Part shown: piece after piece, positions 2,757 to 62,629 of the stretch | Numbering within the stretch: position 1 is the first letter of the stretch | Layout: each line of letters begins with the position of its first letter | Assembly (NCBI GenBank): GCA_947499635.1 | Contig: CANMPD010000001.1 | Coordinates: 62,001-126,000, forward strand | Direction of reading: 5' to 3' | Origin: an uncultured Paracoccaceae bacterium | GTDB lineage: Bacteria; Pseudomonadota; Alphaproteobacteria; Rhodobacterales; Rhodobacteraceae | DNA: 64,000 bases | Translations under genes and position numbers: made by a program | Notes under the pieces: generated by a model | Seen by the model: only the letters and a program-made list of their open reading frames with translations | What the model was told of the DNA's origin: nothing | Database searches by the model: none

Positions 2757-3191
2757 ATGCTTGTTAAAACGATTTTGAACTCCAAAGCGATGAAACAGAT
2801 TGTGACCGTCACGCCGAATTCCACAGTTGCCGATGCCGCGACACTGTTGGCACAGAACGGGATCGGGACGGTTGTGGTTTCAACGGATGGGATGGCTGCG
2901 GATGGTATCTTATCCGAGCGTGATATCGTGCGACAACTTGCCAAAACTGGCGCGGACTGCCTGTCGCAACCTGTCAGTGAATATATGACAACGAAACTGG
3001 TGACATGTACATCTGATGCGAATGTACAAACGCCGCTTGAGCAGATGACCAGCGGCCATTTCCGCCACATGCCGGTGGTAGATGATGGTAAGTTGATAGG
3101 TGTTATTACGCTGGGGGATGTGGTCAAAGCGCAATTGTCGCATGTGGAAATGGAGAAAACGGCGCTGGAAGGGATGATCATGGGGCACTAG
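2757..3191 (+). CDS. CBS-domain protein (tandem CBS pair)
   Basis: 144 aa with two CBS motifs (GIGTVVVSTDGMAADGILSERDIVR; HMPVVDDGKLIGVITLGDVVK). Confidence 0.9.
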   Translation: MLVKTILNSKAMKQIVTVTPNSTVADAATLLAQNGIGTVVVSTDGMAADGILSERDIVRQLAKTGADCLSQPVSEYMTTKLVTCTSDANVQTPLEQMTSGHFRHMPVVDDGKLIGVITLGDVVKAQLSHVEMEKTALEGMIMGH

Positions 3192-46874: not shown

Positions 46875-47347
46875 TGAAGTGGCTGTCGCAGTGTTTGATT
46901 GGGGCAGCCATTTTTTTGTCTCCCCTAGAGAGTGTCGCTTCTGAGTGTCATCCATCTTATGTCGAGCTCAAAGGGGATTGGGGACATGCCCGGTTTTCTA
47001 TTGAAATCGCTGATACGGTCGAAAGTCGCGCACAGGGTTTAATGCATCGTGCCGAATTGGCGCCGTCAGCAGGGATGCTGTTTGTTTATGAAAGCCCAAC
47101 AAAAGTGGCTTTCTGGATGAAGAATACTTTAATTCCTTTGGATATGATTTTCACAGACGAGACAGGACGTGTTGTTTCCATTCACGAAAATGCCATTCCG
47201 GGAGATTTAACATCCATCCCGGGAAAAGGTATGGTGTTTTCCGTCTTGGAAGTGAATGCAGGTATCGTGCAACGTTATGGTATTTCCGTAGGTACGGCAC
47301 TGCGTCACGATGTTTTTTCAAAGAAAACTGCAATTTGGCCCTGTTAA
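46874..47347 (+). CDS. DUF192 domain secreted protein
   Basis: Signal peptide; SRAQGLMHRAELAPSAGMLFVYESPTKVAFWMKNTLIPLDMIFTDETGRVVSIHENAIPG. Confidence 0.93.
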   Translation: MKWLSQCLIGAAIFLSPLESVASECHPSYVELKGDWGHARFSIEIADTVESRAQGLMHRAELAPSAGMLFVYESPTKVAFWMKNTLIPLDMIFTDETGRVVSIHENAIPGDLTSIPGKGMVFSVLEVNAGIVQRYGISVGTALRHDVFSKKTAIWPC

Positions 47348-47392
47348 AGGGTTTTCATTCCCGAACCACTTAGTTAGAAGACGGCCATGGTC

Positions 47393-47469
47393 CGGGGCGT
47401 GGCGCAGTCTGGTAGCGCACCTGTTTTGGGTACAGGGGGTCGTGAGTTCGAATCTCGCCGCCCCGACCA
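47393..47469 (+). tRNA. tRNA-Pro (TGG anticodon), copy 1
   Basis: 77-nt cloverleaf CGGGGCG...CGCCCCGACCA, anticodon loop TTTGGGT, encoded CCA. Confidence 0.97.
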
Positions 47470-47674
47470 TAAATCTCATATATTTCAGATAATTAGCATT
47501 CTTCGCAGCCAGGACGCTGTTATCGGGACATGTATATATGTGTCGCGAACGATGATAATCGAGATCTGTGTATTTCCGTCAAATCATTGATAAGAAATAT
47601 GTATATCGTCCGGATTTGCGTCTGTTTTGGGCTTTTCATTCCCAGATCACTTATATAGAAGATGCTTCATGGTC

Positions 47675-47751
47675 CGGGGCGTGGCGCAGTCTGGTAGCGC
47701 ACCTGTTTTGGGTACAGGGGGTCGTGAGTTCGAATCTCGCCGCCCCGACCA
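47675..47751 (+). tRNA. tRNA-Pro (TGG anticodon), copy 2
   Basis: Identical 77-nt sequence to copy 1, spaced 282 bp start-to-start. Confidence 0.97.
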
Positions 47752-48370
47752 TAAATCTCCATTTATAAATTACCTTATATCGGTGTGTAGGACTTCGCTT
47801 GCCTACATCTTGATATTTGATGCTCTGTTTCTAGGTAAGGGAGAGAATCGATTAAGGTCAGGAATCTTAAGGTTTTCGGCGTAGTCAGTTTTCTTGTTAA
47901 CCTTTGATTTACGAATTGTAGCGTGCTGGCGTCAGTTCCTTAGTTTAGTGTTAATGCATAGGTTGAGTTGATGTTTTCATTAACACATAAACGAGAGTGC
48001 CAAATAAAAGCACATGTGCTTGCGGCTGTTTTATCAAATGCTCTGATGAGAGGAGGAACAGTTCCGTTTTTCTGCCCACGATGGGTGACGGAGCGAGACA
48101 AGCCCCTTGGATTTCAGGAGAATTTCGAGGTCGTGGCCGTAGGTCATTTTTGTACATTTTAGTATCAGCGTGTAAACTGAATCGCTTGATATCGCTGACC
48201 CTAGGTTTCAGGAATTTGGTCAACTACAAAGAGTGGGATTTAGTTCAAATTTTTGCGTTGACCCCCGATGTCCATTTACGCCAAATTGTATGTGGCTAAA
48301 GGTTGTTCGCTACATCTGGTATGAATTTGCGAACGGCCGGGACAAAACAATCGTTGTTTCGAGCGAGAGA

Positions 48371-60634: not shown

Positions 60635-60743
60635 GAATGGCGTAGGGCATTCATCAAAGGAGACATTTGTCCATTGCCCCGCGAATATCGATTGTGATCC
60701 CAGGATGTCTGATGCTGCGCTTTGCTCGAAGGATCGCTATAAG
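60635..60743 (+). repeat. Degenerate dispersed repeat, copy A
   Basis: aaaggagacatttgtccattgccccgcgaatatcgattgtgatccc...gatgctgcgctttgctcgaaggatcgctataag aligns to copy B. Confidence 0.75.
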
Positions 60744-60778
60744 TGGATCAGAACCAGTAGGGAACAGGTCTCGCAAAA

Positions 60779-61186
60779 ATGAGTATTGATCGCCTTTTGT
60801 CGTTTTGGGCTAGAACTGCACCTGAAACACCTATGCAACGCGTGGGCGCACTTTTAATGGCACTGAATGCAGTTTTTTGCACGATCATAATCTTAATGGT
60901 GATTGTCAGTGCCTCTGCGAACACTTGGACCTGTGCAGGGTTGTTGGGCAGCGTATTTGGTTTGAGTGTTATTCTATTGGTGCTTCCGGTTGGAATAGCC
61001 CATGGATTGGCGGCCTGTTTTCCAAGGATACTGAAGCCTTGGAGGCGTGAGCCGAACGGACGTTTAGAAGAGATAAAACTCCATTCCTCCGCCAAAATGA
61101 GGGATATATATCTTGTTGTTGGTTGGTCCGTTTCGATTGGTGCTATCTTGCTGCTGTTGTACCTAGCGGCGCTTCGCGCGCATTGA
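60779..61186 (+). CDS. Hypothetical membrane protein (3 predicted TM)
   Basis: 135 aa; hydrophobic segments VGALLMALNAVFCTIIILMVIVSA, GSVFGLSVILLVLPVGIAHGLAA, DIYLVVGWSVSIGAILLLLYLAAL. Confidence 0.65.
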   Translation: MSIDRLLSFWARTAPETPMQRVGALLMALNAVFCTIIILMVIVSASANTWTCAGLLGSVFGLSVILLVLPVGIAHGLAACFPRILKPWRREPNGRLEEIKLHSSAKMRDIYLVVGWSVSIGAILLLLYLAALRAH

Positions 61187-61226
61187 TCGATGGGCGTTTG
61201 TTCACAGAGCAGACCTTTAGCTGGAT

Positions 61227-61393
61227 GCGTCGAACGACAACTTTGTCCGCATGGCTGCCATCCATTGCCACAATGTCGTATGACTGGTTAGGGTAGGGCG
61301 TCCAAGTAAGGAGACATTCGTCGATTGCGCCGCGAATGTCGACTGTGAGCCCGCTTTGACCAATGCTGCGCTTTGCGCGAATGTCCGCTAAAG
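61227..61393 (+). repeat. Degenerate dispersed repeat, copy B (most complete)
   Basis: Shares its 5' half with copy C (tccattgccacaatgtcg) and its 3' half with copy A (atgctgcgctttgc). Confidence 0.8.
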
Positions 61394-61435
61394 TATGAAA
61401 GAAAAAAGGTTCTTCAAAAAAATCTCTACGTTTAG

Positions 61436-62080
61436 CTAGTCTTCAACACGTAGTTCGTCGTAGGAGATTGCGACGTGTTTTTTGAAGGCGCTGCGATCGC
61501 TCAATCTTTGATAATAGGACTGAAGATTGGGTAACTCCGGGCGGTCGATATCAATGTCAAAGTAACGATACAGCACGTGACCGAATTGAATGTCGGCAAG
61601 CGTAAAGCAAGAACTAGCTAGCCATTCTCTTTTGGAAAGCTGCTGTTCAGCGATAACAAGAAAATGGCTCAGTGAAGTCATAGCGGCATCGATTGCCTGA
61701 GGATCTCTTTGTGATGGTGCGGTGCGAACGACGCGCCAGAAAATTGGCCCGGTGAATTTAAGTGTGATATTGATTTTTGCCCATTCAGCCCATTGATCAA
61801 CCTGTGATCGTGCAGCCAGGTCTTTGGGCCAGAACGCATCATCCCCATATTTTTCAGACAGGTAACGCAGGATCACACCAGTTTCCCAAATTGGCACGCT
61901 ATTCCCATCTTTGAGGACTGGAACTGTACCATTTGGGTTCATAGCGAGAAATTCCGGAGTATCATTGCCCCCATAAATAAAACCAGTGTCATGCCTAATG
62001 TGCTTCAAGCCAAGCTCTTCGGTCGCCCACATCAACGCTTGAACATTGGACGATGAAGCTCGCCCCCAAATCTCAATCAT
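61436..62080 (-). CDS. Glutathione S-transferase family protein
   Basis: MIEIWGRASSSNVQALMWATEELGLKHIRHDTGF; NPNGTVPVLKDGNSVPIWETGVILRYLSEKYG. Confidence 0.92.
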   Translation of the reverse strand: MIEIWGRASSSNVQALMWATEELGLKHIRHDTGFIYGGNDTPEFLAMNPNGTVPVLKDGNSVPIWETGVILRYLSEKYGDDAFWPKDLAARSQVDQWAEWAKINITLKFTGPIFWRVVRTAPSQRDPQAIDAAMTSLSHFLVIAEQQLSKREWLASSCFTLADIQFGHVLYRYFDIDIDRPELPNLQSYYQRLSDRSAFKKHVAISYDELRVED

Positions 62081-62212
62081 TTAACATTCTCCAATGCCGG
62101 GATTTTGGCGAATCTGGACGGCCTCTACAAGCATTATCATGGTATGTTCGGCCTTCTCGCGACCTTCTCGAAAACCATTTTCAGTTCAACGGACGGCCTA
62201 ACCGGACATTGG

Positions 62213-62312
62213 TGCGTCTGCCGCGAACGGAAAGTTTGTCCCGCAGAGCGGCCGTCCATTGCCACAATGTCGAATGACTGGCTAGGGTAGGGGGTCCATT
62301 AAGGGGGATTTT
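62213..62312 (+). repeat. Degenerate dispersed repeat, copy C
   Basis: gccgtccattgccacaatgtcgaatgactggctagggtagggggtccattaagg aligns to copy B. Confidence 0.8.
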
Positions 62313-62498: not shown

Positions 62499-62541
62499 AA
62501 TTTTAAGGGGCAAACCGACAATAGCGTTTTGCCCCTTAAAA
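62499..62541 (-). terminator. Hairpin downstream of tRNA-Leu
   Basis: ttttaaggggcaaa...ttttgccccttaaaa inverted repeat. Confidence 0.75.
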
Positions 62542-62543
62542 TA

Positions 62544-62629
62544 TGGTACCCAAGGCCGGACTCGAACCGGCACGATATCACTACCGGGGGATTTTGAATC
62601 CCCTGCGTCTACCATTCCGCCACTTGGGC
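62544..62629 (-). tRNA. tRNA-Leu (CAA anticodon)
   Basis: Minus strand gcccaagtggcggaatggtagacgcaggggattcaaaatcccccggtagtgatatcgtgccggttcgagtccggccttgggtacca; anticodon loop TTCAAAA. Confidence 0.95.

Follow-up and report, generated by a model that had tools for sequence, protein, structure and literature searches.

Degenerate intergenic repeats beside rluE in a Paracoccaceae genome: probable recombination sites of a mobile cassette family with a 210-aa tyrosine recombinase as candidate enzyme

Towards the end of the 64,000-nt stretch of DNA from an uncultured Paracoccaceae bacterium analyzed here (referred to as the window), three short repeats alternate with two accessory genes beside rluE and a tRNA-Leu gene. 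What are these repeats, and how did the genes come to stand between them? An earlier note described copies A, B and C as degenerate dispersed repeats marking a plastic insertion locus. The positions it gave, the shared strand and the noncoding nature of the copies were confirmed, the sequence blocks it quoted were found, and the alternation A-membrane-B-GST-C was recovered, with a 135-aa open reading frame (ORF) and then a glutathione S-transferase (GST) gene between the repeats; its distance of about 230 bp from C to tRNA-Leu agrees with our measurement (Table 1). Only B is a complete copy, however, while A and C are partial, representing the right and the left part of the repeat, respectively. 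The interpretation itself is sound within its limits, but it missed the breakpoints at the motif GAGCCC, the occurrence of the membrane gene elsewhere and the ends of a recombinase gene. From sequence comparison, we consider it probable that the repeats belong to a mobile cassette family, of which they would be degenerate recombination sites and short non-autonomous segments, with a 210-aa tyrosine recombinase as the probable enzyme.

Table 1. Features of the repeat locus (window positions).
Feature	Position	Strand	Remarks
Copy A	60635-60745	+	Right part of repeat only: end of gene-less middle segment and unit tail
Cassette 1	60696-61248	+	Unit tail, membrane gene, repeat head; from pairwise alignment with L009
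Membrane protein gene, 135 aa	60779-61186	+	No Pfam match; putative cargo of cassette 1
Copy B	61227-61393	+	Complete composite repeat (head, middle, tail)
Head of copy B	61228-61248	+	
Gene-less middle segment of copy B	61245-61352	+	Bounded by GTCCGC and GAGCCC
GAGCCC core in copy B	61347-61352	+	Putative crossover region
Tail of copy B	61347-61393	+	
Cassette 2	61347-62244	+	Unit tail, GST gene reversed, head of C; putative, by analogy and sequence layout
GST gene, 214 aa	61436-62080	-	Putative cargo of cassette 2
Copy C	62213-62312	+	Left part of repeat only: head and start of middle segment
tRNA-Leu(caa)	62544-62629		232 bp from copy C

Each repeat is a mosaic around the six-base core GAGCCC with imperfect inverted arms. 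In pairwise alignments, A and B are 77.7% alike over 103 nt (E 3e-16) and B and C 85.3% over 75 nt (E 2e-17); a second repeat search of the window gave 78% over 98 nt for A/B and 88% over 58 nt for B/C. Copy B is matched by profile model R1 (E 7e-48). Copy A, whose core is mutated to GATCCC (60696-60701), contains a match to the profile of the unit described below (G000:C1:122676-122744, E 7e-9), and the head of copy C carries GTCCCGC at 62238-62244.

The tRNA-Leu gene is unsupported as an integration target; a duplicated tRNA end was not seen. An 18-bp inverted repeat (94% complementary, 62500-62542) just past its 3' end is probably the tRNA-Leu terminator. Five loci of relatives (L161-L165) reveal the order RluE(-), HNH(+), approximately 3 kb, DsbB(-), VTT(-, where found) and tRNA-Leu(+). 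Relative to these, the HNH-to-tRNA-Leu block is inverted in the window genome (60440-64000), and one breakpoint of the inversion coincides with the position of A-membrane-B-GST-C. Elsewhere in the window, two tRNA-Pro(tgg) genes form a tandem 146-bp duplication, 89% identical (47333-47759).

The repeats are not confined to this locus. DNA searches of the own genome yielded eleven significant places, and a profile search gave about 30 matches (29-31). A profile built from 16 copies matched all 18 genomes of the genus that were searched, where the matches are often clustered on one strand at a spacing of about 0.7-3 kb. Single small genes are again bracketed in the own genome at C2:72392/73358 (265-aa ORF) and C8:417/1067 (151-aa ORF). 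Comparison of two subfamilies isolated a common 45-bp unit, GAGCCCAnTTTGACCGATGCTGCGCnTTGCnCGAATGnCCGCTTT, in which conservation is highest over the first six bases (0.92-0.97 per base, 116 sites). The arms of the site form an imperfect palindrome centred on the core, approximately GCGGCGAAnGnCnGCTTn-GAGCCC-AnnTTGACCGATGCTGCG. With the unit profile, the own genome yields 24-29 sites; 46 genomes within the same bacterial family have matches, whereas among the genomes sampled from other families there are only 2. The repeats are widespread in the bacterial family. Control DNA from the rluE region (225 kb) contained a single marginal site besides the window's own. An initial IUPAC pattern search of the genome contigs returned zero matches because the repeat is too degenerate. 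A phage origin was rejected, the repeat matching only 24-nt chance stretches in Mycobacterium phages.

The earlier note also suggested a check for RNA structure. Stable folds are indeed obtained from single copies, as would suit a terminator, attenuator or other regulatory element repeated by chance. A consensus structure is absent, though (2 pairs, energy about 0), neither a covariance-model match in Rfam nor a covarying fold was found, and the adjoining genes are unrelated and lie in both orientations. We therefore regard a structured RNA as a most improbable explanation.

Presence and absence of the bracketed genes, the second point on which the earlier interpretation was made to depend, vary as it anticipated: neither the membrane gene nor the GST gene occurs in any of the 20 rluE-region loci fetched from relatives. 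With these 20 loci and the roughly 30 profile matches, the outcome named there as contradictory, namely no further copies and no such variation, did not occur.

The membrane gene gives the clearest view of movement. Pairwise alignment of its cassette in the window with C6:203704-204365 of the same genome (L009) reveals 2 SNPs in approximately 550 bp. Past this segment the repeats of the two copies, on C1 and C6, are about 78% alike, and farther out the DNA is unrelated. Both breakpoints fall inside repeats, the right boundary being GTCC and not GAGCCC. Altogether the gene was found at five places in four genomes, each time with at least the unit tail upstream. Homologues in Tritonibacter litoralis, a Ruegeria sp. 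and a Phaeobacter sp. share 73-75% and 59% identity; their neighbourhoods differ, and the unit tail lies immediately upstream in each. The membrane protein is absent from the whole plasmid collection searched. As to the surroundings of the second copy, repeat copy C6_1 (L009:3353-3691) starts within a fragment of a large serine recombinase gene, with a tRNA nearby at L009 about 3000-3070. Searches for a recent second copy of the GST cassette found none, and no site adjoins the three nearest GST homologues. The best reading of A-membrane-B-GST-C is two decayed gene cassettes beside rluE whose sites would be partly eroded.

Further recent exchanges were examined for the position at which similarity breaks. 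A gene segment of 893 bp is shared at 97.4% between G004 and G015, and another of 333 bp at 98% between two contigs of G011; both start at GAGCCC, and the preceding sequence differs. Segments without a gene behave alike: 107 bp (100% identical, two places in G007, the same kind as the middle segment of B), 68 bp (98.5%, two places in G015) and 52 bp (98%, two places in G013) all end at GAGCCC and have unlike flanks on both sides. Across 121 sites in in-register alignments, 10 of approximately 27 non-open right ends lie 6-9 bases past the start of GAGCCC, and the left starts of gene segments lie at -5 to +1 relative to it. Since all copies conserve GAGCCC, alignments tend to stop on it; a crossover is thereby confined to these six bases or their edge and resolved no further. 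A second junction, GTCC(C)GC, bounds two of the gene-less segments on the left and the membrane cassette on the right. A search for strain-level presence/absence on Phaeobacter plasmids found no informative pair. On a larger scale, the window genome (L140:10862-15540) and G007 (L082:4402-9171) have in common a 4.3-kb block of five genes at 79%. It encodes three small proteins besides a DUF1611-like and a racemase-like protein, and in each genome a unit copy follows downstream.

Could such exchanges arise between passive intergenic repeats that multiply by some unknown route, with homologous recombination or gene conversion swapping the genes and the recombinase as chance cargo? Copies of one subfamily are 70-90% alike, which is sufficient for occasional exchange, and the two breakpoints of the membrane cassette both lie within repeats; single exchange events may indeed stem from homologous recombination. 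Breakpoints should then scatter over the 100-170 bp of the repeat, however, whereas they pile up at the six-base core, even across subfamilies. Such exchange would also leave unexplained why GAGCCC motifs flank the recombinase gene on either side at fixed distances, as described in the following. Passive repeats are hence an unlikely account.

The candidate enzyme, a 210-aa tyrosine recombinase, recurred among the loci fetched for the repeats. It matches PF00589 only (Pfam E 1e-17) and has no domain other than the catalytic one; the residues R, K, HxxR, H/W and Y needed for catalysis are conserved in the 22 aligned homologues spanning them. One such recombinase is WP_011536738.1 of Ruegeria sp. 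TM1040. Copies were gathered by protein search alone before their flanks were stacked, and GAGCCC was counted by motif search, not with the repeat profile. GAGCCC or a near variant lies upstream at fixed distances in 23 of 27 copies: in subfamily A the distance is 132-135 bp (13 of 17 copies), in subfamily B either 97-99 or 130-133 bp (10 of 10 copies). Downstream, it is found at 76-77 bp in 13 of the 17 subfamily A copies. These motifs face outward, and beyond them identity drops towards background; the neighbouring genes are different in every plasmid examined. When the two flanks of single copies were aligned directly and locally (ten plasmid copies), scores did not rise above shuffles, and the shared ends are visible only after stacking. 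The same core forms both ends of a tiny recombinase element. This element is apparently undescribed; the open-access literature revealed nothing relevant, while preprints and most subscription papers fall outside that coverage.

Genomes of the same family carry on average 12.9 sites with the recombinase versus 3.0 without it (MWU p 3e-7, kinship not modelled), and outside the genus the means are 10.6 versus 1.3 (p 2e-6, likewise with kinship not modelled). In 9 of the 18 genomes of the genus, sites are present and a close recombinase is not. The own genome has an open recombinase frame at C8:160080-160709, which has lost its upstream GAGCCC end and shows a head/GTCCCGC junction in its place.

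The 52-107 bp segments, being gene-less, multi-copy and exact in their ends, might also suggest REP-like or miniature inverted-repeat elements (MITEs) that an unlinked transposase mobilizes, with the intervening genes as bystanders. MITEs and REP/REPIN elements are likewise short, noncoding and multi-copy, with an autonomous relative in the genome. Yet gene segments with the same boundaries also move, and among the genes seen only the tyrosine recombinase has matching ends. An enzyme of this class sets the present family apart from both, as do boundaries with a hexamer core in place of long terminal inverted repeats and target duplications. We rate this explanation as quite improbable, though less so than a structured RNA.

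For the preferred reading, recombination at sites served by the 210-aa enzyme, the following course is probable. The recombinase would cut and rejoin DNA within the GAGCCC core; a palindrome centred on the core is what is expected for a tyrosine recombinase, the crossover region of which comprises six to eight bases. DNA between two sites, be it a gene, a gene-less piece of 50-110 bp or the recombinase gene itself, could thereby be joined, removed or exchanged. Repeated capture would lead to gene-repeat-gene arrays, in which single accessory genes alternate with repeats. We further infer that the intermediate would be circular, that insertion would have a polarity, and what kind of junction GTCC(C)GC, the second one, would represent.

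Compared with known systems, this one looks integron-like in its working but scores outside the integrons proper, which on present sequences is the best reading. Like integrons (IntI, attI, attC; CALIN), it combines a tyrosine recombinase with single-gene cassettes between imperfectly palindromic multi-copy sites, has sites adjoining the recombinase gene, and includes acetyltransferase, GST and toxin-antitoxin genes among its accessory cargo. A site next to the integrase with cassettes beyond corresponds to the upstream GAGCCC of the 23 copies (out of 27). On the other hand, three members reach only 24, 20 and 23 bits with the IntI model NCBIfam TIGR02249, against a cut-off of 265, and the attC core motifs RYYYAAC and GTTRRRY occur together in 1 of 116 sites, where 0.27 are expected by shuffling. 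Unlike in integrons, the recombinase has 210 aa and a catalytic domain only, the cassettes are dispersed, and the cargo genes lie in either orientation; unlike attI, an additional site lies downstream of the recombinase. With FimB/FimE and the Xer recombinases the enzyme shares the fold family PF00589 and a full catalytic residue set, and FimB, at about 200 aa, is of similar size. It nevertheless falls below the cut-off of every Xer and invertase model (best score among XerC, XerD and XerA 59 bits, at least 220 being needed), and its relatives in the PDB are distant only (XerD, E 1e-4). Where these enzymes are tied to a single invertible promoter or a dif site, this one is associated with cargo and with sites that are dispersed.

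Relatives of the recombinase were found on 438 plasmid records from many Proteobacteria, including Escherichia, Klebsiella, Pantoea and Sinorhizobium. Six gammaproteobacterial copies share a conserved block that comprises the gene with about 65 bp before and 45 bp after it, with ends resembling GCGGACATT and unrelated surroundings; we take this as a lead, not as proof, that the arrangement holds generally. Many Klebsiella plasmids carry a 75-bp terminal piece of this element (L224:2700-3900, E. coli pPGRT46; query 235-309) that lacks the gene, as expected of a short non-autonomous derivative; some part of the query is matched by 567 Klebsiella records. Beside the E. coli copy, L224:2820-2925 is 90% identical to a class 1 integron stretch on a Pseudomonas plasmid (L312:1501-1549), which sits between a cassette gene and qacE-delta-1. 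Because of this match, the E. coli recombinase copy abuts an integron attC-like site.

As a tentative extension, in which we place clearly less confidence than in the cassette reading of the repeats, there might be a second cassette system across the Proteobacteria, independent of integrons. Its minimal recombinase would form a cassette of its own of about 700-860 bp, and its dispersed palindromic sites, with the GAGCCC core in Rhodobacterales and ends resembling GCGGACATT in Gammaproteobacteria, would have assembled single-gene cassettes in chromosomes and plasmids. If the proposed reading is true, common intergenic repeats of Roseobacter-type genomes would serve a gene-shuffling system as its recombination sites, with crossover in a six-base core and with a candidate enzyme that can be named. 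This would explain how single orphan genes move among unrelated loci without insertion sequences, and accessory genes on plasmids would gain a further, integron-like route.
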